Below are positions 3,297 to 50,137 of a DNA stretch of 52,319 bases, piece by piece. The notes below the pieces were generated by a model that searched no databases, was not told the origin of the DNA, and saw only the letters and a list, made by a program, of their open reading frames with translations. Origin of the DNA: a virus; the IMG/VR virus record IMGVR_UViG_3300007539_000027, positions 1 to 52,319 of that record; one strand, 5' to 3'. Both the position numbers and the translations under genes were made by a program. Within the stretch, counting starts at the first letter, position 1, and each line of letters starts with the position of its first letter.

Positions 3297-4009
3297 TATC
3301 TCAAGAAAGCGTTGAATGTCAATCTATTGGTGTGCCAACCCTCCTTAGAAAAATAAGGACTATGCCACAATGCACCTTCATAGAATATAATGCTGTTGAA
3401 TTCATGTGGTTCAATGTGATATCTTTCCCACTCTTTTAATTTTACGTTAGCAGGATCGAAGGAAGTCATTGCTTGCACTTTGTTTGCAATTCTTTCTGTT
3501 CTGTAATTCCTTTCGGCAGTTACATACTCTTCCCCAGTTTCTTTAATGCGCCAGAATGCAGTTCCATTTGGTATCTCGTGATCATAGTCATCATCTTCAT
3601 TGAATGACAATACAGAAGCATATCTAACGTAGTCTGAGTGTGGATACAAACTCATAAACCTTACTTTATCCTGAGGATCATACATTTGCAAAGTAAAATT
3701 GCTTTGCTCTGGATGTCTCAGTAGATCATCACTAGCAGTGAAGTAATGCTTACAGGCAAATCTCACAGGAGAATACAATTGATTTCTATAGTTTCCAATC
3801 TGGTGAAGATATCCAGGTAGATTGGTAACTTGTCCTTTTGTGGTGTCAACATAGTCTACAGACTTAGCAAACAACTTAAGTTGTTCTGGGTTTACAAACC
3901 AATTCTTAATAATGACAAGTTTGTTCTTAAAATTGCCAATATGTTTTTCTTCAACCTCCCAGTGTTGAGGGTGGTTTACCTCAAATAATTGAGGATCAAT
4001 TACTTTCAT
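3296..4009 (-). CDS. 2OG-Fe(II) oxygenase-like protein (DUF6445-like)
   Basis: 237 residues from ATG at 4009; a GTG at 4012 is one codon upstream. The C-terminal half has the layout of a double-stranded beta-helix dioxygenase: PHSD with H124 and D126 as candidate first iron ligands, an NGTAFW segment followed by KETG at about 148-158, H216 (LWHSPYF) as the distal ligand and R229 (NRLTFN) as a candidate 2-oxoglutarate anchor. The NGTAFW and KETG spacing resembles DUF6445 proteins. The substrate is unknown. Its start overlaps the end of the upstream gene by 14 bases, so it belongs to the cassette with the second oxygenase and the U32-methyltransferase fusion. I am fairly sure of the fold, not of activity. 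Confidence 0.75.
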   Translation of the reverse strand: MKVIDPQLFEVNHPQHWEVEEKHIGNFKNKLVIIKNWFVNPEQLKLFAKSVDYVDTTKGQVTNLPGYLHQIGNYRNQLYSPVRFACKHYFTASDDLLRHPEQSNFTLQMYDPQDKVRFMSLYPHSDYVRYASVLSFNEDDDYDHEIPNGTAFWRIKETGEEYVTAERNYRTERIANKVQAMTSFDPANVKLKEWERYHIEPHEFNSIIFYEGALWHSPYFSKEGWHTNRLTFNAFLR

Positions 4010-4712
4010 CACAAACTCCTATCTTAATTCTGTATGGTCCTGTAGTAACAATGTCGGGACAAGCATTCATAGCTAGCGTAATTCTTTCTTCGCTATAGTC
4101 ATTCTTTACCTGATTGAACCCATGGTATAAACCAGATTGCCAAATAAGTAAAGTTCCTTCTTGTGCATTAGTTGCAATAGTTGGAACTGTGTATGGTGTA
4201 TGATTTTCTGTGTTAATAGAAAATGCTGGATGTGTACCATTGGGTCTGAATGGATTGCAAAATTGTAAGGGAGTATGTTCCTCTTTAAAATTTACAAAAT
4301 AATTACAAGCAAGAATACAATTACCATGGAAGTGTTGGTCTAACCAATTTCCTTTTCGTGTAACGTTAATCCAACTATTTGTAATTAACATCTCATTATA
4401 TTCTGCTTTACCAAAGGTGTCAACAAAGAAAGAGTTTAAACATGTTTTGGTAAACAACTCAAAGTCTCTAATAGCTTCTTGAAATTCTGGTTCTTTTACA
4501 TTTCTAAAAATGTCTTGATCATATGAATTAAAGAAGTGTTGGATGCCACCTTGATCTTCTGGCATCTCATACTTAGTGTCACTATATTTTTGGATAATTT
4601 CGTATACTACCTTTTTCCATTCTTTATGGTGTGGATATTCGTAGAGACCTATTGGTACTACGAATAGATCCATAATTTGAGACTTGATTTTTTCCGCTGA
4701 TTTAATCTTCAT
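3996..4712 (-). CDS. Putative 2OG-Fe(II) oxygenase (TIGR02466-like)
   Basis: I take ATG at 4712 (238 residues): it overlaps the upstream stop by 11 bases, whereas an earlier in-frame start at 4775 would bury over 60 bases in that gene. ATG at 4673 is the other candidate. The motif order fits the putative 2OG-Fe(II) oxygenase family TIGR02466: NSWINVTRKGNW, then H127 and H129 in DQHFHGN, a LACNYFV strand, EGTLLIWQSGLYHGF with H197, and EERITLAMN with R210. These would bind iron (H127, H129 or a neighbour, H197) and 2-oxoglutarate (R210). The substrate is unknown. A second, unrelated-looking oxygenase-like gene follows directly, which suggests a shared pathway. Confidence 0.78.
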   Translation of the reverse strand: MKIKSAEKIKSQIMDLFVVPIGLYEYPHHKEWKKVVYEIIQKYSDTKYEMPEDQGGIQHFFNSYDQDIFRNVKEPEFQEAIRDFELFTKTCLNSFFVDTFGKAEYNEMLITNSWINVTRKGNWLDQHFHGNCILACNYFVNFKEEHTPLQFCNPFRPNGTHPAFSINTENHTPYTVPTIATNAQEGTLLIWQSGLYHGFNQVKNDYSEERITLAMNACPDIVTTGPYRIKIGVCDESN

Positions 4713-6432
4713 TTGTTTTTTCAAGAACCATGATATAAACACCATTCCACCAATGGTGTGGATTTTCAATGACACCGCTTAGAAGTTTACGTTCGAAGTA
4801 AACATCCAACTTGTTCTCTGATACAAACTGAATAGCACTTTCGACAACACCATCAAAGTTAGCATCATCAATAACTAGAATAAACTTGTCTGCCAAGAAA
4901 GGAAGTACATGATTTAGATTATTGAGTTGCTCAACATAATCATGGTTAGCATCATAGAAAATGACATTGGGTTTCTTACCTTCAAAATCTTCTTCTTTAA
5001 GATCCTTAATCGATGTGCCAATGAACGTGGTTTCTCCATTCTCATACTTATCAAAGTTAACTTTGAATTCTTCTAGAGGATTGCCACATTCTGTCCAGTA
5101 CACATTTTTAGTCATTGGTTGACAGTTTGGTTCTGAAAAATTATCTACACCAAAACAAGGGATATTATTATCCATGATAGCAGCAAAGAATGTACTGCCC
5201 ATGTAAGTGCCTAGTTCTAGATAGACAGAATTATCATAAGAACAAAGATTATTAAGAAGGTGTCTTACTCTAGGAGAACTCAAACCTCGTGCAGAATATA
5301 CCTCTGGTCTAAACTTAGATTTATTTTTCAGAGCATCATCAATCGCATCCATAGAACGCTGAGTATACTCTTCAATGTTATCTGTTTCTCCTTTTTTCTT
5401 GAGGGAAGAATCTACTACTGCTTCACAATAGTGACAATCCCAACAATCAAACTTACATGTTTTGATCTTTTCTCTCCAGAGATTGATGGGAGCATCTTTG
5501 ACCTCTAGGTCATCCATATAATCGTCAAACTCTGGGAACAAAAGATCTTCTTTTCTTGCCCAACGTTCAATGATATCCATGCTTTCTTTCAAACGCATAG
5601 AGTTTTCTCTGCCATGCATTTTGAAAACATCAATACCTAGATCAAGAAACTCTTCCCAATCTTCACGCCACGGTGGCAAGTTTGCAGACTTTAGAGCAGA
5701 AGCATTATCTTCAATGTCCCACTTAGAACAAGAATTTGTACTAATGGGATCCATGAAGTATTGTGGTGCCTGATTTCCTCTGGTGTTATTGAAATGGTAG
5801 TGCTCATCCATCATAGAGCAACCACCCCAACATCCTTCATTTGCAAGGATAGATAGCTCTACTGGTTTACCAATCTCGGCACAGTATTCTTTTGCTCTCT
5901 TGATCTCCAGAAGCGCATTTCTATCTCGCATCAGATCTCTATCCAGATTGATGTAATGGAACCCCGCCTTAGCGAGAGATACAATCTCATTTGCTTTGGT
6001 TACGTTTCTGAGAATTGTGTTCTTGATTTTCAGTTCTGGGAATTCTTTTTGCAAGATGCCAGTAGCAACCCAACTGGTGTGTGGAATTGTAGCAATCTTC
6101 ACTCCCATTTCATAGACAGCACGGAAGTTGTGTACGAACAAATCCAGTGTCTCTAGGTCAGGGCGAACGTAAATGTTATTGAACGTTGCTGACAGAGGCA
6201 ACTCTGCTTCTCTGGCGATTACAATTGCATTGTAGAGTAGTTGCCTGGTGTCTCCATTGAAAACGTCACCCATTGCATCTTGCTCAAATGGGGGCATTCT
6301 ACAGGTAAAATACAGGTCTTTAACAAAACCTCTATATTTCATCAACCAAGGAATGACAACAGAATCTACAAAGATTTTATCAAGCTTGGGATTTATTGGG
6401 AGACTGAATACGGAGTTTTTCACTTGTGACAT
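4702..6432 (-). CDS. U32-like Cys-rich barrel fused to class I methyltransferase
   Basis: 576 residues in two parts. Residues 1-345 resemble a TIM-barrel of the peptidase U32/UbiU-UbiV type: LPLSATFNNIYVR, then a NEGCWGGC segment with C201 and C205, then C235, and a cluster C326, C330, C333, C336 that could complete an iron-sulfur site. Residues 375-570 form a class I SAM-dependent methyltransferase of the Methyltransf_24 type: motif I at 406-414 (ELGTYMGST), an acidic D430 after the next strand, and FYDANHDYV and VIDDANF further on. The start ATG at 6432 has an AGGT ribosome-binding site but lies 53 bases inside the upstream gene. Substrate unknown; the two oxygenase-like genes follow in the same run. 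Confidence 0.75.
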   Translation of the reverse strand: MSQVKNSVFSLPINPKLDKIFVDSVVIPWLMKYRGFVKDLYFTCRMPPFEQDAMGDVFNGDTRQLLYNAIVIAREAELPLSATFNNIYVRPDLETLDLFVHNFRAVYEMGVKIATIPHTSWVATGILQKEFPELKIKNTILRNVTKANEIVSLAKAGFHYINLDRDLMRDRNALLEIKRAKEYCAEIGKPVELSILANEGCWGGCSMMDEHYHFNNTRGNQAPQYFMDPISTNSCSKWDIEDNASALKSANLPPWREDWEEFLDLGIDVFKMHGRENSMRLKESMDIIERWARKEDLLFPEFDDYMDDLEVKDAPINLWREKIKTCKFDCWDCHYCEAVVDSSLKKKGETDNIEEYTQRSMDAIDDALKNKSKFRPEVYSARGLSSPRVRHLLNNLCSYDNSVYLELGTYMGSTFFAAIMDNNIPCFGVDNFSEPNCQPMTKNVYWTECGNPLEEFKVNFDKYENGETTFIGTSIKDLKEEDFEGKKPNVIFYDANHDYVEQLNNLNHVLPFLADKFILVIDDANFDGVVESAIQFVSENKLDVYFERKLLSGVIENPHHWWNGVYIMVLEKTNED

Positions 6433-20528: not shown

Positions 20529-23500
20529 TTACTTCTTAATTGTGCGGGAGACTACTGTAATATTTACATTCTGTGCGTTTGTAACATTAGACGATAGTGT
20601 GAAATTAAATCTCACATTTCCCTGAACGTTGAAGTCAAGGGTATAATCAACAAGAGAATTAGCAGTTTGAACTGTGCCAATCTCTGTAAAGTAAATATCA
20701 GTTCCGTCATCGATAACAGACAATTCAATAAATTCTTTCGCGCCAGAAGATGTGTTGTGGACAATTACTTCTACTCTAGAAGATCTATCAAGTAGTGGAT
20801 CGTAAAGAACTGCAGCACCACTATTTGTTGTTCCCTTGATAAGAGGAGTTACTGCTGTGGTGATCCTGTAGTTTGAAATTTCAATTGCAGATAGGTCTTT
20901 ATCAAAGATTTTCACACCATCAAATACGCCAGTGCCAAAACCAGTGTTGAGGTAAACATCACCCTGATCATCTAGTCTCAATACAGGATCTACATTCAAT
21001 CCAGTAGAAAGAGCAAGATCAAGATATTGTTTTGATGTGCTCAGTACAGTTCTGTCTGTATTAGTGTTATCAATAGTTGTGGAGTTTTGTGCTAATGTAA
21101 ATGTGTTAGCAGTAACTTCAAGACTATTATCAAACGGTGTTGTGATGGTATTGATACCAGTAAATCTCAATTCTGTAGTTGTTAGTTCTACAGTCTTAAT
21201 GTTGTCGTTATAGAAGTATAGAATATTTTCATTAGCACCAGGAGATGTTTCTGGGATAATGTAAGTGTTTTGGTCAACGTCTTTGACGCCACCTAGGGAT
21301 CCCCATTGAGCACCGTTGAAACCTTCAAAGTTTTGGTTAGTTGTGTTGTAACGAATAGAACCTGTTTCTGCAGATCCTTTGTCATTTTCACTACCAACAG
21401 GAATTACAAGAGATGTAACAGCATCACACTTAATCTTATTACCAGTATTTGGCTTTAGTAGAAGATCACTAATTTGTGTAGAAATTACATTTGTTTGTAG
21501 CTTGAGATCACCGTTAATTGATAGTGGTACAGTGTCTGTAGTATTACCAATTTTGAGTTCTGCAATCTCAGAGAACAGTAGATCTTTTACTGCTGTTTCA
21601 TGCCACTGTAGAGTAGCAGAACCATTGACAAATGGGTTACCAGAAGTATCACTTGGTTCGCTACCAGAAGTAGCAGTAGTACCACCAATTGTAACTAGGT
21701 AAATATCAGAACGATACTTGAGATACTGACCTGCAATTACAGGAGCATTTGCGACCCAATTAGTATATGCAGGAGCAGTTGTGCTTAGAGATCTGATTGC
21801 GTCTGCATTCAAGAACTCCAACCAATCTTTAGTTACTCTTAGACTGAGAACCGCATCATTATAGAACCACAGTTTGTTATCATTAGCACCTGTGGTTTCT
21901 TCTGCCAAAATGTAAGTGTTGCCATCAATATCTCTAACACCACCAAGAGAAGACCATGCACTAGATGCAGACGAGTAACCTTCGTATTGATTTGTTTCAG
22001 TGTTAAATCTAATCAAACCATCAACCAACTGTGAAAGAGGTGGTCTGTCAGCAGTTACACCAGCAGGAATACCAAATGCAGTGGTTGTGTTGACCATCGC
22101 TTTTCTACCACCAACTGGTTTTAGAACGAGGTCAAGATTGGCAAGAGATCTAACTTCGTTATTAACAATCTCAAGTTGATCGTTTACATTAACGGCAGTG
22201 ATTGATTTCAGTGTTCCCTGTGAAGTTAGATCACCATTAGTATTGTCAACAGTTAGTGTTGGTGTTTGACTTGGTTCTCCAATGTTTAGGAGAGAATGGA
22301 AACTATATGTTGTAGCGGTTGTTACAATATCTGTACCAGTAATGGTTGCAATATCAAGCGCAGTGCCATCAATATCAGGTGCGGTTAGTGTTCCAGTGAT
22401 ATCAGCATCTAGAGAAGTGATGCTAGCAGCAGCGGTAAATGTTTCTGCAGCAAAATCTCCAGAAATAATACTACCTTTGATGATATCTGAACTATCAACA
22501 GCATCAACAGTTAGTAAGAAACCAGATCCAAATACCCTTGGATTGTTTGGATCCATGGTGATGGTTTTTGCAACACCAAATAGTTTGCCAGCTTCGGTTT
22601 CAGCACCATCTCCAATGTCATAGTAGTATAGAGTTGGAGTGTCGGAAGTTACCTTGATTGTTATATCAGTAGCAGTTCTGGTTACGCCTTCGGTATACTC
22701 GGCACCTGTGAATGCCAGGATAGATGCACCAGCACCATTTGGAAGTGTATCTAGTGTAATCTGAGATGGACCATCAACACTAGCAATCTTTGTTCCAGTA
22801 GTAACACTACCAGCACCAGAGGAAGTTACTAGCATTCCTGGTAGCAGTCCAATTGTACTACTCAATGCAACAACTAGAGAAGTCTCTGATAGAGTTACTG
22901 CATATCCAGAGAAAGAAGATGGTGCTTTGTCACCACCTTCAAATCTAGATAGTCCAAAATTATAAGAACCGTTAGATGAATCTGAAATATCAAACTTATA
23001 CGTGTTTCCAACAAAGAAACTTAGATCTGGTGTAATTACGCCATCAATAAAGATTTTAGTTTCATTACCTACTGGAGATGCGGTATTGATAACATAAGAA
23101 GGAGAAGTAGCTCCATTAATGATAACAGTAGATCCATCACTGAAATCAGTATCAGCACCAGAATCTAGATCATAAACAACAAGAGATTGAATATTTCCAC
23201 CAGATACATTTTTTGCTGCAACGTAATAAGTGGTAAATGTGGTAACACCCTGAATAGTGAATTCAATATCATCAGCAGGAGAAGTACCGCCAACTAGATT
23301 ACCAGCAACAGTAACTGTGTCTCCATCTGTATATCCAAAACCACCGTTGTCAACAAAAGCAGATGGAGCACCATCTCCTCCTCTGAATACGGTTAGAGTA
23401 AGACCAGTACCAGTGCTACCAGATGCAGCAACTCCAGTATATGTTGCGTTTGCCTCAGCAAGAATACTAGTACCAGAACTAAATCCAACGTTACCAACAC

Positions 23501-25667
23501 CACCATCTCTTTGCTTGATAGTATCTCCAACAGAAATAGCACCATCTGCTACATTTGTTGTAAATGTTAGTGTCTGAATTGGATACCACTTGACAACTCT
23601 ATCAATTGGTTGAATTAGATTGGTTGCAACAGCAGTTAGAGTATCACCAACAGAGTAACCATTACCACCGTCAGTGATTGTTACGTCACCAACAGTTCCT
23701 AGTGCTGTAATCTGGAAACTAAATGATGTAGTTCCAAGTCCAAAAGTTGGAGCAAAAGTTAGAGTTGCAGAACCAGGAGATGTTGGTGGTGAGCTAAGTG
23801 TAATTACAGGTGGACTTGCTAGTCCATCAATTGCCTGTACTGTTGTACCAGGAGAAAGAACACCAGAACCTGCTGTTTGTGTAACACCATCACCAACAGC
23901 AATACCAAGAACAGAAGTAACATTAATCTGTTGTGTGTTTGGTGATGTAAATGTCAAACTTGCTGCACCAGAGGCGTCAGCAGGGAAAGACATGGTTAGA
24001 GTAGTTCCACTGTCAATACTTTGAATTACAGCACCCTGTGCAACAAATCCAACGTCACCTTGACCGTTGAAAATATTCATACCAACAGCAAGATTGCTAG
24101 TATCAGCAACCGTAATCTGGGATACACCAGCAGTCAGAGTTGTGGTTACACCAGTGATAGTACCAGGAAGGACGGTTGTAATACCACTAACACCCTGTGG
24201 AAGACCTAAAGTATCACCTACTTGATAACCAGATCCAAAAGTAGTTAAATCAAAATCGGAAATAACACCAGGATCAGATGTGACAGTAAATTCAAATCCA
24301 GAACCAACGCCACCAATATTAGCGTTACTTACGGATAGAACTTCTCCCGATACGTAATTTTGACCTTGCTGATTAACAAACGCAGCAGTAACACTACTGA
24401 CATAAGATACTGCGGTAATATTAACTACAACTCCAGTTGTATTACCGATTTGTACAGGAATAAATTGAATTTGGTCGCCAGCGTTATATCCAGTACCAGC
24501 ATTAGTAATAGTAACTGATGATACGTTTCCGCTAGCATCAACATCAACAGTTGCTGTTGCACCTCTACCAGAAGTTGTTTCTGCACCAGTGATAACCGCA
24601 TTAGTTGCCTGTCCCATACCTCCATGGTTTACGCAACCATAACCAACAGCGTTAGGTGCGTCTGGATGGACAACTAGATCATAAAATGCTCCAGCAGTAC
24701 CCTCGGATCCGAATACTACTTGGGTGAATTGATCGGGAAGTTGGTTTAGTGGATCACCTGCACCATGGAAGAACATGGGGTGACTAATAACACTAGGATC
24801 CGATACATCAAATCTGTATGTGTTTCCTCTTTCAAATGTAAATGTGGGTCTAGTAACACCATCAATTACATATTCGTATGGAATTGCGCCTCCATCTCCA
24901 TTTACGGTAACAATATAGGTTTGACGTGGAACGTTGTAGACATCTACAGAAGGATAAGAACCTTGACTTCCACCAGTACCAGAATTATTAATGCTTAAAG
25001 TTAGAGATGTATCACCAGTTACTGTTAGGTCGAGAGTTGCTCCTGTACCAGATCCAGAACTGGTTGTTGGGATATCTAGGTATGCTCCAGGTGGATAACC
25101 ACTACCAGCATTAGTAATACCACCCTCTAGTTCTTCAACGACAAATTCACAAGATGCACCAGTGCCACTGCCACCAATCAAGTCAATACCTGTAAATTGA
25201 CCTGGGTTATAGTTTGCACCATTGTTTAGAATATTGCCAGCAAATCCTTCAACGATTAGTGTTGCAATACCACCGTCACCAGTACCACCAACCAAAGGTG
25301 TTAGTTCATATGTACCTTCATCATATCCACTACCAGTGCTGGTAATAGTAACACCATCAGTAAGGAGAATTTTCTTTTGAAAGACAAAATCTTTATATGT
25401 CTTCGTATTAATATCATTGAAGTCGATTAGTTTCTTGGTGTTAGAAACAAATCCAAGTGTATTATTGTCTGCTTTGTATAAACCGAGTTGACTGTCGCTT
25501 ACAAAAGCAAGAGATGGTGCAGATCTAGTACCGTCACCTAGTTTAATATTACCTGCTGAGAGATCTGATCCACCAGCAGAGATACTAAAAAGTTGAGTTC
25601 CTATCTCATTAATCTTGACCCTTTGTTGTTCAAAGGTGTCAGTACGTGCTACATTAATTGCTGGCAT
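20529..25667 (-). CDS. gp10-like baseplate/fibre protein with cupredoxin-like domain
   Basis: 1712 residues. The N-terminus (INVARTDTFEQQRVKINEIG) resembles the attachment segment of T4 gp10 and gp12-type proteins, and the gene follows the gp8 and DUF4815 genes. From residue 100 there are at least eight GxGY repeats. Residues 250-360 form a cupredoxin-like domain with all four candidate type-1 copper ligands: H296, C345, H348 and M351. A second copy at about 870-1025 keeps the GNTYKFDISD strand but lacks these ligands. Two tandem units with LGGVRDIDGNTYI and LGGVKDVDQNTYI follow near 1200-1490, and the C-terminal 150 residues are beta-rich. The start overlaps the upstream gene by 14 bases. 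The gp10 name is positional, hence no symbol. Confidence 0.78.
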   Translation of the reverse strand: MPAINVARTDTFEQQRVKINEIGTQLFSISAGGSDLSAGNIKLGDGTRSAPSLAFVSDSQLGLYKADNNTLGFVSNTKKLIDFNDINTKTYKDFVFQKKILLTDGVTITSTGSGYDEGTYELTPLVGGTGDGGIATLIVEGFAGNILNNGANYNPGQFTGIDLIGGSGTGASCEFVVEELEGGITNAGSGYPPGAYLDIPTTSSGSGTGATLDLTVTGDTSLTLSINNSGTGGSQGSYPSVDVYNVPRQTYIVTVNGDGGAIPYEYVIDGVTRPTFTFERGNTYRFDVSDPSVISHPMFFHGAGDPLNQLPDQFTQVVFGSEGTAGAFYDLVVHPDAPNAVGYGCVNHGGMGQATNAVITGAETTSGRGATATVDVDASGNVSSVTITNAGTGYNAGDQIQFIPVQIGNTTGVVVNITAVSYVSSVTAAFVNQQGQNYVSGEVLSVSNANIGGVGSGFEFTVTSDPGVISDFDLTTFGSGYQVGDTLGLPQGVSGITTVLPGTITGVTTTLTAGVSQITVADTSNLAVGMNIFNGQGDVGFVAQGAVIQSIDSGTTLTMSFPADASGAASLTFTSPNTQQINVTSVLGIAVGDGVTQTAGSGVLSPGTTVQAIDGLASPPVITLSSPPTSPGSATLTFAPTFGLGTTSFSFQITALGTVGDVTITDGGNGYSVGDTLTAVATNLIQPIDRVVKWYPIQTLTFTTNVADGAISVGDTIKQRDGGVGNVGFSSGTSILAEANATYTGVAASGSTGTGLTLTVFRGGDGAPSAFVDNGGFGYTDGDTVTVAGNLVGGTSPADDIEFTIQGVTTFTTYYVAAKNVSGGNIQSLVVYDLDSGADTDFSDGSTVIINGATSPSYVINTASPVGNETKIFIDGVITPDLSFFVGNTYKFDISDSSNGSYNFGLSRFEGGDKAPSSFSGYAVTLSETSLVVALSSTIGLLPGMLVTSSGAGSVTTGTKIASVDGPSQITLDTLPNGAGASILAFTGAEYTEGVTRTATDITIKVTSDTPTLYYYDIGDGAETEAGKLFGVAKTITMDPNNPRVFGSGFLLTVDAVDSSDIIKGSIISGDFAAETFTAAASITSLDADITGTLTAPDIDGTALDIATITGTDIVTTATTYSFHSLLNIGEPSQTPTLTVDNTNGDLTSQGTLKSITAVNVNDQLEIVNNEVRSLANLDLVLKPVGGRKAMVNTTTAFGIPAGVTADRPPLSQLVDGLIRFNTETNQYEGYSSASSAWSSLGGVRDIDGNTYILAEETTGANDNKLWFYNDAVLSLRVTKDWLEFLNADAIRSLSTTAPAYTNWVANAPVIAGQYLKYRSDIYLVTIGGTTATSGSEPSDTSGNPFVNGSATLQWHETAVKDLLFSEIAELKIGNTTDTVPLSINGDLKLQTNVISTQISDLLLKPNTGNKIKCDAVTSLVIPVGSENDKGSAETGSIRYNTTNQNFEGFNGAQWGSLGGVKDVDQNTYIIPETSPGANENILYFYNDNIKTVELTTTELRFTGINTITTPFDNSLEVTANTFTLAQNSTTIDNTNTDRTVLSTSKQYLDLALSTGLNVDPVLRLDDQGDVYLNTGFGTGVFDGVKIFDKDLSAIEISNYRITTAVTPLIKGTTNSGAAVLYDPLLDRSSRVEVIVHNTSSGAKEFIELSVIDDGTDIYFTEIGTVQTANSLVDYTLDFNVQGNVRFNFTLSSNVTNAQNVNITVVSRTIKK

Positions 25668-41900: not shown

Positions 41901-44900
41901 ACCAAAACCAAACTTGACTTCTGTAAAAGAACCTGGGTTTCCTGGTTGAATAAATGATGCAGTCTTCTCTACTGTCTCAAGGTTGAAACTTCTACTTGGA
42001 GACAAATCAAAGTAAGTCCCAGTTAGAGACGAATGAGACGTGTCAAACACATACTTGTAAAACTCCTGAATATCAATATTTGGATTGGGAGTAAATGTAG
42101 TATTGTCTTCTGAGAATTCAAACTTGTATGCTGTTTCTCCTGCACTAAAAATTTTAACCTGTCTGGCAGGAGTAGAGTTATCAAAGAAAGAAGAACTTTG
42201 TCCTACTTGTGCTGCATTTGATAGTAGAGTTGCATAGTCATAAACAATCTCAATTTTTTGAGTGTCTCTATCGTAAGATTGAATATATCCAGAATTGTTT
42301 CCAGTGAAGATTTGGAAGTTAGGATTAAAATTATACGTTGGTTTGTATAGGGATACTGCTTGACCATCATAGTGATCAACTGCTTTAGTTCCTTCTCTAG
42401 CGGTAAGCACAGTAAGTGTACTACCACTAACATTAGTGATTTCTAAAACTTCTTCGCCAACCTTGATAAGGTCACCGCTTGCATATCTTAGGGGATCATC
42501 AACAATCAATGCATTGGATCCTGCACCAAAACCAACATGGTCAACATATAGAACAAGACGTTGATTGCCCAAAGATCCACCAGATCTTACTAGACTTTCA
42601 TCATCAACGCCAAGATAGTCTGCTTTACTGTAACCAGAACCTTTTGCTTGAATAGTAACGCTAGAAACTAGTCCAGAGGTAGAAACTACGATGTTGGCAG
42701 TTGCACCTGTACCAGTTCCACCAGTAAGAGGTACATTATTATATGTGCCTGCAGTGTAATCAGAACCACTGTTCAATAGTTGGAACCTACCAACTCCAGT
42801 ATCATTGATAGTAGTATTTGCTACAGGAGTTTGTAGAACTGCTTCTTGATATAGTCTCTTTCTAAGATAATATGTCTTCGTCTTTGTTGTATCGTCTGGA
42901 TTGATACTAATAGTAACATCGTCACCAATACCCAGACCATGTGGTGCATCTGTTTCAATCAAAGCAACACTCTGATCAACAATAAATGGTTCTAGACCAT
43001 CACTCAAAGAGGTAAGTCTTACAAGTCTAGTTCCAGTGGTATCAAAGGTGCTTTCGGATTGAATGAAGTAATCGTCATCAATTCTCCAGTCACTAGTAGT
43101 GGGTGTAGCATATCCTTCCTCTTCTCCTAGATCAACCACTTTAATAGTAACAACATTTTGCTTGTTTGTTCCCTCTAGAACAATACCTTTAGCAATTGGG
43201 TTGTCTACACCATTCGTTAGCAGAAGTTCGTTTCCTTCTCCATAAGAACTATTTTGATCCAGTAGAATAGAGAAGGTTTTGATATCAGCAGAGAATGTTC
43301 CAGTCGTGTCAAACGTACCATTAACATCCTTAAGAACAATTAAGTTATCATTAGCAACTGTACCGACAATTTGACCAGACGCACCAGAAGATGGTTGTCT
43401 CAGGAAATCATCAGCAAACAAATATGCAGTTTGAATAGTTGTTAGTTGTACTACCTTTGTCTCTTTGCTTTGCAGGTAGTTTACACCTTTACCTTTGACG
43501 CTAGAGACTAGTGCCTCTACCTCAGATCCTTCAGTTCCCGAATTGTCAAAATATGCTTTTGAGTTTACCGAGAAATTGCCAGAAGAACGATATACATCAA
43601 TTCCTTCTACATTGCCAGAAGAAACATCAGAAATAAACCCGATAAATCCATCACCATTCCTAGTAATACCAGGAACAGAAAATCTCTTTGCGGTTTTTGG
43701 AATATCGTTTTGATTTATGTTAGAATTGTAATTGCTGTCTACTGGTAGAGAGTAGAAGCTATCACCTAGAATGTATGGATATTTCGGTACTTGATTGCTA
43801 TCAATAGTAATGAAATAAGCATAAGTTCCTTGCGGAAATTCTGGGGTAACACAAATTCTTCCATTGTTCTTGTCTAGTGAACCACTCTTGTGGGTATAAG
43901 TGTAGTCATTGACAAATGTGCCCAGTGGAAATCTGTTTATAGCAGGACCACCAGAGCGAGATCCATTGAGAGAATAACTAGAAGTCATCCTAACAATAGG
44001 AGACTGGGGATCTAGTGGGTTCTCGTGTCCAAACGGACCATAGATTGGATTGCCATCATAAGCAAAACCTATGATAGGTGAGTGAGTTTTAGTTGCTGGT
44101 TCTGTTCCAGCACTGTTAAGATTATCACTAAGACCAACTCTTAGTGTTTTAGGGTTAGCAAGATAACCATATCCATACTTAAGAACAGGATCATAGTTTT
44201 CAAATACATAACCATTCTCAGTGTCAACATCTGTTCCAAGTTTGGTGTATCTGTTGTAGTTCCATTCTTTTAGTTGAGGAATACCAACTGCACCAGTACC
44301 AGCGGGAATGATGTCTACAATGACACTTTCTTGGGTGTAGAAATTGCCTTCATCAATTTTCTCAAAACCAATGATCTTTCCATCGCCACCAACGATTGCA
44401 TTGTAACTAGCAAATCTACCACGACCAGCATTATCTCTAATTCTTACTAGAGGAGGTGAGGAATAATATTCACCAGGATTGTCAATTTGTAGACTAGTTA
44501 CCTTACCACCAGTAACAACAGCACGAACTACTGCTTCTCTACCAGAAGTAATGGTAATTTCTGGAGTTGTTGGGAAGATGTCATCAGTATCTACAATAAC
44601 ACTCTCAACAACCTGACCAGAAAGAATTGCTCTTGCTTTACCAGGAACTTGGTCAATCAATACATATGGTGGTGCATCATATCCTCTGCCCTGTGCATTA
44701 ATAGTAATCTTCTCTAGTTTGCCATAGTAAACGCTTTCAGTATCTTTGTAACTGTATCCTCTAACACCATTCAGAAAAATGCAAGTATCTGCTTTTGGTG
44801 TTTTGTATTCTTCAGTAGTTACTGTTGCTCTTTTACGGATTAATCGTAGGATGTTTTGATCCAGTACATCTACGGTTACTTTAGAACCATCTAAAATATT

Positions 44901-48573: not shown

Positions 48574-48789
48574 TCACTGATGCCAACGCTCTACAAAGTC
48601 ATCAAATCCACCAGCACCACCACAAGGGCGCTCTAGACGATCTTCGGGTAGTGGATATAGTTCTTCCCTTTTCTTTGCTTCACGTTGCTTTCTAGCAAGA
48701 TCTAGATAACGATCAGCATCGGTTTCAGTAATAAGGGTCATCCCTTCATCAATAAAGTTTTGTCCTTTATCAACTCTGCTGTTGCCCAT
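48574..48789 (-). CDS. Small conserved-looking protein of unknown function
   Basis: 71 residues from ATG at 48789. The central part is a highly charged helix (TDADRYLDLARKQREAKKRE), and the C-terminal 20 residues hold a CGGAGGFDDFVERW motif. The start overlaps the end of the upstream gene by 20 bases, showing co-translation. From memory similar proteins stand beside gp25 in cyanomyoviruses, but I cannot assign a role. The Cys-Gly-Gly-Ala-Gly-Gly segment and terminal Trp-His-Gln are its most distinctive features. Confidence 0.75.
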   Translation of the reverse strand: MGNSRVDKGQNFIDEGMTLITETDADRYLDLARKQREAKKREELYPLPEDRLERPCGGAGGFDDFVERWHQ

Positions 48790-49435
48790 TTTCTTTCTCC
48801 TTTGGTGTTTCCCAGAAATAATCGTCTGTGTCTCCTAAACGCCCCCAGTCTGTCCCTGCTTCGACTTGGTATTCTATGGTGGATACCTTGAAGTCTGGCA
48901 TTAAAGGGTCTTGTGGGGTGATAGAGAGGTCATAGAAACGCATCCTGTTATTGGGATACAATCCAAACTGACCATTCTCTAATGCAACACAATTATGTGA
49001 CTTGTGCTCTTGTGGCACCTCACTCACATTATTATCTATCACGTCAATATTAGCATGATAGTTATCTAACGTAAACAAGTAAGTTCCCTTAACAAAACCA
49101 TGGTTTCTTGTATACACTTCACAATCCATAGAGGATACAAATCCCTTATTGATTGCAACTACTCCATAGTCCATACAATTCCAAAATTGTAGGTTCTCTA
49201 GAGACATATCTGGCGTCGGTGTTTTCGGCGCTCTCGTGAATGCAGATATCGGAAGTTTATCATACATCGCACCATACTCAGGTAAATACGTCTCAAAATA
49301 AAAAGCACGCCCAGGTATCGACTTTGCCGATACCCAGACGCCCTCTACAAACTCCCCATGACCATCTACATGATCTCGGAGATATTCGCGCCTTACCCAT
49401 ACTTTCTCAGCAGGAAGATTGCAAATTAAATTCAT
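48770..49435 (-). CDS. Protein of unknown function, coupled to 2OG oxygenase
   Basis: 221 residues from ATG at 49435, which overlaps the oxygenase stop in ATGA; a TTG in frame at 49450 is rejected. The N-terminus MNLICNLPAEKVWVRREYLR is followed by beta-rich segments (GVWVSAKSIPGRAFYFETYL, then YGAMYDKLPISAF) and several aromatic strands. Aromatic and Asp/Asn residues are abundant and there is no membrane segment. I do not recognise a family, though the protein seems typical of cyanomyoviruses. Tight coupling suggests function alongside the oxygenase or the small basic protein upstream. Confidence 0.75.
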   Translation of the reverse strand: MNLICNLPAEKVWVRREYLRDHVDGHGEFVEGVWVSAKSIPGRAFYFETYLPEYGAMYDKLPISAFTRAPKTPTPDMSLENLQFWNCMDYGVVAINKGFVSSMDCEVYTRNHGFVKGTYLFTLDNYHANIDVIDNNVSEVPQEHKSHNCVALENGQFGLYPNNRMRFYDLSITPQDPLMPDFKVSTIEYQVEAGTDWGRLGDTDDYFWETPKEKENGQQQS

Positions 49436-49986
49436 AACAACTCTGTCCAACCTGTAATAATCATTTTCTCATTCTCTGGATCTACTCTAGATTTATGAGT
49501 AAACATCCACTCTGCTGGCCAGATTAACGTTTTGCCTCTCTCCGCAGGAATATTCAAATCCTGATAAAGAAACTGGGTTCCCCCATCTGGATTATCAGTG
49601 AGATATGTCATCCATACAAGATGGCGATATACTGCACCCTTCCTACCAGTGCGTTCAAAGTGCCACGTCTTATATCCTCCCCCTGGTTCATAATGTTGAA
49701 TATTAAACTTGGGTGATATACGACTAGGCATTGATGACTTACGGTACGTCTTGTGATACTTCTCAATAAGACTATCTAAACAATTCAGATAATCTTTGAT
49801 ACGATTATCAAAGTCAGCATAAGAGGTATGCACAGTCATATCCATTGACTGCTTCACTGCATCGTTAGTTCTTGGAGCATCTCTGTCGCCCCCTATAACG
49901 CCTGGTTTTGCACTATAGTTATCGTTGTGGTAGAAGAAGTCCACAACGCCGTCACAGACGCTTAGAGGGACCTCTCCTGCCATCAT
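49432..49986 (-). CDS. 2OG-Fe(II) oxygenase, prolyl-4-hydroxylase type
   Basis: 184 residues from ATG at 49986 (a second ATG follows directly); a longer TTG start would overlap the 48-residue gene. The dioxygenase core is clear: NIQHYEPGGGYKTWHFERTG, RHLVWMTYLTDNPDGGTQFL, then AERGKTLIWPAEWMFTH and an EKMIITGW strand. Candidate iron ligands are H109, E111 and H164, with K174 as a possible 2-oxoglutarate anchor. HxE replaces the usual HxD; I recall WHxE also in other cyanophage members, so it is probably not a disabling change. The substrate is unknown; phage structural protein or host protein hydroxylation are possibilities. It starts five bases after the stop of the basic peptide gene. Confidence 0.85.
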   Translation of the reverse strand: MMAGEVPLSVCDGVVDFFYHNDNYSAKPGVIGGDRDAPRTNDAVKQSMDMTVHTSYADFDNRIKDYLNCLDSLIEKYHKTYRKSSMPSRISPKFNIQHYEPGGGYKTWHFERTGRKGAVYRHLVWMTYLTDNPDGGTQFLYQDLNIPAERGKTLIWPAEWMFTHKSRVDPENEKMIITGWTELL

Positions 49987-49990
49987 AAAC

Positions 49991-50137
49991 TCACTTACCT
50001 TGTCCACGATAACGCTTCTTTGCTTTGTTACGACTGGTTGCCGAATACAACGTGTTCTTTGAACTCCCTTGACGGGTCTTCTTGGGCTTGCTCTCAATAA
50101 TCTTCTTACCGCTTAGTCCAACTTTTGCTCTTGCCAT
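49991..50137 (-). CDS. Highly basic 48-residue protein
   Basis: A short frame, ATG at 50137 to TGA at 49991-49993. Of 48 residues 16 are Lys or Arg and one is acidic, in a sequence beginning MARAKVGLSGKKIIESKPKK and ending with an Arg/Lys-rich KAKKRYRGQGK. It fits exactly between the PAAR-like gene (gap 5 bases) and the oxygenase start (gap 4 bases), which supports that it is translated. It may bind nucleic acid or an acidic virion surface. I recall similar small basic proteins in cyanomyoviruses, without known function. Confidence 0.75.
   Translation of the reverse strand: MARAKVGLSGKKIIESKPKKTRQGSSKNTLYSATSRNKAKKRYRGQGK

Follow-up and report, generated by a model that had tools for sequence, protein, structure and literature searches.

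The window analysed here, a 52-kb virus record (52,319 nucleotides) from a T4-like marine cyanophage, encodes a 1712-amino-acid virion protein in which residues 244–357 probably form a cupredoxin domain with a working, predicted type-1-like metal site. The domain descends from the blue copper proteins, which serve photosynthesis and respiration, and putatively works as they do, and we consider it very likely that this divergent cupredoxin binds copper. The site recurs nearly unchanged across many marine viruses, which suggests that the tails of these viruses may carry copper. The features discussed below are collected in Table 1.

Table 1. Cupredoxin copies, predicted ligands and associated features in the window.
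Feature	Position	Strand	Remark
Gene of 1712-aa virion protein, T4-GC 829 type	20529..25667	minus	holds cupredoxin copy 1
Cupredoxin copy 1, aa 244–357, full H-C-H-M set	24597..24938	minus	profile match E 7e-37; AlphaFold; Foldseek
His296 codon, predicted ligand 1, directly before a strand	24780..24782	minus	H in 102/103 relatives
Cys345 codon, predicted thiolate ligand, strand end	24633..24635	minus	C in 102/103 relatives
His348 codon, predicted second His ligand	24624..24626	minus	H in 102/103 relatives
Met351 codon, predicted axial ligand	24615..24617	minus	M in 101/103 relatives; Gln in four orthologues
Cupredoxin copy 2, aa 845–1039, split by inserted domain	22551..23135	minus	without all four ligands in the window
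Beta domain inserted in copy 2, about aa 910–988	22704..22940	minus	model residues 66–144 match phage decoration/tail domains
Third, partial cupredoxin-like copy, in 3459-aa virion protein	41913..42137	minus	no ligands

The gene lies within the baseplate gene cluster. Its product matched the PHROGs family phrog_6005 (virion structural protein) and, more weakly, phrog_32294 (baseplate wedge subunit), and its neighbours encode the baseplate wedge families phrog_219 and phrog_438, the 3459-aa virion protein, a DUF4815 protein and a large tail fibre, in the same order as in Kyanoviridae cyanophages such as S-CAM4 and S-PM2. From these neighbours and annotations we infer a baseplate or virion place for the protein. 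The preliminary description had called it 'gp10-like'; for a possible relation to T4 gp10, the analysis gave the weaker baseplate wedge match in PHROGs and the position among baseplate wedge genes, and the name is best kept as a candidate label. Mutations in S-PM2d089 (PMC9910659) were wrongly considered to belong to this protein, the S-PM2 orthologue being S-PM2d086, in which a single late SNP arose in one chemostat (PMC9910659). Also encoded close to the tail genes, at 48770–49450, 3996–4775 and 49432–50097, are a member of the ferredoxin family (phrog_3704) and two members of the 2OG-Fe(II) oxygenase family.

The predicted ligands had been named beforehand as H296, C345, H348 and M351, and these assignments proved correct to the residue, residues 250–360 corresponding exactly to positions 24588–24920. 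The motifs that had been quoted, GNTYRFDVSD, SHPMFF (containing H296) and YGCVNHGGMG (containing C345, H348 and M351), were likewise all found. Since C-x2-H-x2-M occurs a single time among all long open frames of the window, and the 1712-aa protein has three cysteines in total, the ligand motif is unlikely to be a chance occurrence. The Met spacing is indeed tighter than in plastocyanin, but because amicyanin has the same C-x2-H-x2-M spacing, this is no obstacle to a copper site. The residue following the first His is Pro (SHPMFF) in the window and most relatives, rather than the Asn that is usual at this position in plastocyanin and azurin; His-Pro is found after the first ligand in multicopper oxidases.

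The proposed cupredoxin fold was borne out by structure prediction and comparison. An AlphaFold2 model built from a 103-row alignment was confident (pLDDT 89.3, pTM 0.83) and placed the first His just before strand 54–58, the Cys at the end of strand 97–101, and the second His and the Met in the loop before strand 113–116. This predicted distribution of ligands over strands and loops is the cupredoxin arrangement, as in blue copper proteins. The best solved matches returned by Foldseek were rusticyanin and the blue-copper domains of nitrite reductase (E 1.3e-3), and VIA-align gave Z scores of up to 7.9 against laccase and NirK domains, a middling score.

By sequence, the window domain matched no Pfam family and had no usable match to a solved copper protein in the PDB, and PF00127 was hit neither by it nor by 13 close relatives. 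Since direct searches were unproductive, a bridge through sister domains was needed. Such a group, with the pattern SGHPFYIK ... YYxCxxHxxM, has members in the fibres of cyanophages and in a single cellular protein; when it is aligned with the window domain (99% probability), its ligand residues fall at matching positions. Its profile retrieved plastocyanin (E 6e-5), auracyanin, amicyanin and rusticyanin from the PDB, and its cellular member scores above the PF00127 cut-off. The homology to known blue copper proteins indicated by these alignments is transitive only. Overall, the interpretation offered in the preliminary description is largely or partly supported: in its type-1 copper reading, the fold and the full ligand set in the expected order stand, on the combined evidence of predicted structure, fold search, transitive homology to plastocyanin and the joint variation and loss of the ligands.

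This last point emerges from the relatives. The strongest argument that the motif is real is its conservation. Across 13 sequences, from the window and 12 phages, at 31–52% identity to the window, His, Cys, His and Met do not vary. At least 101 of 103 aligned relatives have H-C-H-M, against a mean column identity of 40%, and the set was not selected for the ligands, since the search pattern used to assemble it lay upstream of them. The two exceptions are L069, a mere alignment shift (CSVHGRVM), and L033, which is without all four ligands. The majority of members have C-x2-H-x2-M, and the Met is kept both where the spacing is x3 (L010, L046, L069 and L075) and where it is x4, as in plastocyanin (L020, L022, L023 and L125). 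In four orthologues (L211, L217, L244 and L245) the axial Met is replaced by Gln, which is the axial residue of stellacyanin (PMC4059628). Copy 1 is broken in four orthologues (L033, L285, L314 and L370), and in each of them all four ligands are gone. Joint loss, combined with variation in the loop and axial position, is the behaviour to be expected of residues that would serve as ligands of one metal site.

Orthologues of the 1712-aa protein also contain a second, split cupredoxin, which is described here for the first time. Profile searches located its first half at residues 860–915 and its C-terminal half near residue 1015. In its AlphaFold model (pLDDT 91.8), rusticyanin aligned over both halves (model residues 24–195), while the best single match was a phage protein covering just the inserted domain; this insert matched phage decoration and tail domains with Z scores of 8.4 and 7.3. 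The window copy reads SYNF and YYYDIGDG at the ligand positions. The ligands are intact in many orthologues, and H-C-H-M is complete in isolate orthologues without copy 1, namely ACG-2014i, S-RSM4, Sf-FR1, Sf-FP1, one S-RIM44, one ACG-2014j and Sf-CH11. Many orthologues (for example L223, L340, L248 and L208) have a copy 2 with Glu for Met (His, Cys, His, Glu; C-x5/6-H-x2-E-G-G); L208 itself reads C-x2-H-x2-E, whereas its near twin L204 has Met. Such H-C-H-E copies may represent another kind of metal site, or else an intermediate on the way to decay. Equivalents of the third copy in large proteins of other cyanophages are ligand-less like that of the window, apparently a purely structural use of the cupredoxin fold. 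Since the fold persists in ligand-less copies (copy 2 of the window and the third copy), metal is not needed for folding; the site is therefore probably kept for the action of the metal and not for folding alone.

The coexistence of two copies raises the matter of whether one site can replace the other. Orthologues were fetched from viral contigs through the N-terminus of the protein, regardless of their domains, and loci from earlier searches were added; the classed set comprised 99 non-redundant full-length orthologues and L033, with L184, L310, L124 and L286 classed by hand. Where the copy-1 site was present (n=63), copy 2 had H-C-H-M in 8 cases, H-C-H-E in 27 and no site in 28. Where it was missing (n=37; absent in 33, broken in 4), the corresponding numbers were 23, 3 and 11, so that an intact copy 2 was found in 23/37 orthologues without a copy-1 site and 8/63 with one (Fisher p 4e-7, uncorrected for kinship). 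Correction for kinship left 11 supported independent pairs, of which a mean of 4.3 differed in opposite directions, 0.1 in the same direction and 6.6 showed no difference (median p 0.125, not significant), on a tree in which long branches meet and which was built from the C-terminal part, which may recombine against the domains. We regard these sequence patterns as suggestive of one site standing in for the other. The stricter rule of exactly one intact site per orthologue was rejected: eight orthologues keep two (L018, L204, L218, L256, L272, L282, L286 and L346) and eleven have neither H-C-H-M nor H-C-H-E (L122, L250, L291, L301, L304, L305, L306, L314, L341, L344 and L351). In whole-genome searches (E 0.01), S-WAM2 had no intact site and S-PM2 had an H-C-H-E copy only. 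Since some phages are without any intact site, it is useful but not essential.

The copy-1 domain was found by tblastn in 48 phage records, all below 60% identity, from cyanophages, pelagiphages, Methylophilales phages and a few other marine viruses; the proteins concerned carry the annotations structural protein, tail fibre or baseplate wedge. A scan of viral contigs confirmed at least 530 places that encode it, and a fold search of BFVD with the copy-1 model retrieved similar predicted structures from many cyanophages, with giant viruses giving weaker matches. The preliminary description was thus right that virion proteins of other marine phages contain similar domains. The giant-virus matches belong to Marseillevirus and Pithovirus metagenomic lineages and are named beta-sandwich proteins (E about 1e-5). 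Further C-x2-H-x2-M cupredoxins lie in other structural or fibre proteins of P-HM1 (L163, 50700–51700), P-SSM2 (L162, 25400–25984) and S-CAM4 (L165, 166300–167100), the P-SSM2 copy adjoining collagen-like GPT repeats. An additional 24 places are in bacterial or mixed assemblies, long Flavobacteriaceae contigs among them. On long marine Flavobacteriaceae/Bacteroidetes contigs the H-C-H-M domain sits inside large proteins (L109, on QFDA01000001.1 of 1.06 Mb, L098, L100 and L106), and a second, ligand-less copy is present in L106, L107, L098 and L100.

Among known systems, the plastocyanin/azurin family (PF00127 Copper-bind, including amicyanin, pseudoazurin and auracyanin) has in common with the phage domain the cupredoxin fold, the order H ... 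C-x2-H-x(2–4)-M and the Y-x-C motif. However, its members are small, soluble, exported electron carriers, whereas the phage domain is part of a large virion protein, has Pro in place of Asn and is too divergent for the family profile; since no direct profile match was obtained, we have not filed it in PF00127. Rusticyanin and the blue-copper domains of nitrite reductase and multicopper oxidases are closest by fold, and the multicopper oxidases share the His-Pro, but identity is about 10–16% and the phage domain has no type-2 or trinuclear site. PetE, the plastocyanin encoded by cyanophages, is listed in PMC3037559; it is a copper protein that belongs to one superfamily with the domain described here and occurs in the same phages. 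But petE is a small gene of its own, which resembles that of the host and serves photosynthetic electron transport, whereas the domain would be a part of the particle. Phage tails are also known to hold metal sites with a proposed role in host contact, as in the iron-binding tail fibre domains (PMC11705849) and the Ferrojan horse idea, although there the fold, ligands and metal all differ, copper being predicted in our case. Among open-access papers we found no earlier description of cupredoxin domains in phage tails.

How such a site might act is a separate matter. The cupredoxin domain would be part of a baseplate protein or of some other tail protein, and each copy of that protein would most likely carry a single copper ion once the virion is complete, its high-affinity site having formed beforehand and acquired the metal either at lysis or from the surrounding seawater. 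By capping the thiolate outside the cell, the copper would make the domain more stable and shield it chemically, so that the tail contact module would stay in working shape. Stabilisation of a tail contact domain is the role we prefer, though only tentatively. The points that weigh against a working copper site are the absence of a direct sequence match in Pfam or the PDB, the middling Z score, the Pro for Asn, the dispensability of the site and the survival of the fold in copies that have no ligands. Moreover, virions are assembled in the cytoplasm, where free copper is scarce, and structural metals are established in many phage tail parts; both facts, together with the iron-binding tail fibre domains (PMC11705849), speak for another metal in the living virion, such as zinc, which would enter the site while the particle is put together in the cytoplasm and would act there only as a structural clamp. 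We nevertheless think this unlikely, since the ligand set, the variation in loop length and the exchange of Met and Gln at the axial position are as in copper sites, since zinc is poorly bound by Met, and since the fold persists without any ligands. That same persistence (in copy 2 of the window, pLDDT 91.8, and in the third copy) would fit a tail beta-sandwich that binds no metal, mediates protein contacts and keeps H, C, H and M for packing only. Packing, however, fails to explain the joint loss of four residues, the retention of Met across three loop lengths, the change of Met to Gln or the match of the sister domains to plastocyanin, and we find this explanation highly improbable.

More room is left for a redox or receptor-contact device on the tail, serving in electron exchange, in protection from oxidants or in binding a host copper-handling surface protein as a copper Ferrojan horse. 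Copies 1 and 2 are some 600 residues apart yet tend to substitute for each other, as if one site anywhere were needed and not a fixed contact, and many tail, fibre and baseplate proteins that are otherwise unrelated share the domain. On the other hand, neither a partner nor a receptor nor a path for electrons is known for such a device, the substitution of one copy for the other is not significant once kinship is allowed for (11 pairs, median p 0.125), and the hosts (cyanobacteria, SAR11 and methylotrophs) are diverse; we therefore hold it to be rather doubtful. The same degree of doubt attaches to the broadest proposal, namely that copper-loaded type-1 sites are widespread on the tails of marine phages that infect cyanobacteria, SAR11 and methylotrophs, as a functional device for redox chemistry or copper-dependent host contact. 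These sites would be movable between domains and proteins, each tail protein would tend to retain one or more of them, and together they would constitute a hitherto undescribed class of virion metal centre.

With no fewer than 530 confirmed places in viral contigs, the domain occurs in phages of the most abundant marine bacteria. Natural comparisons are offered by the second copy, which is decaying within the same protein, and by phages that have no intact site. If copper is bound, it would be a new virion cofactor; and if tails hold it, phage particles would carry a redox metal, and copper levels in seawater could affect infection.
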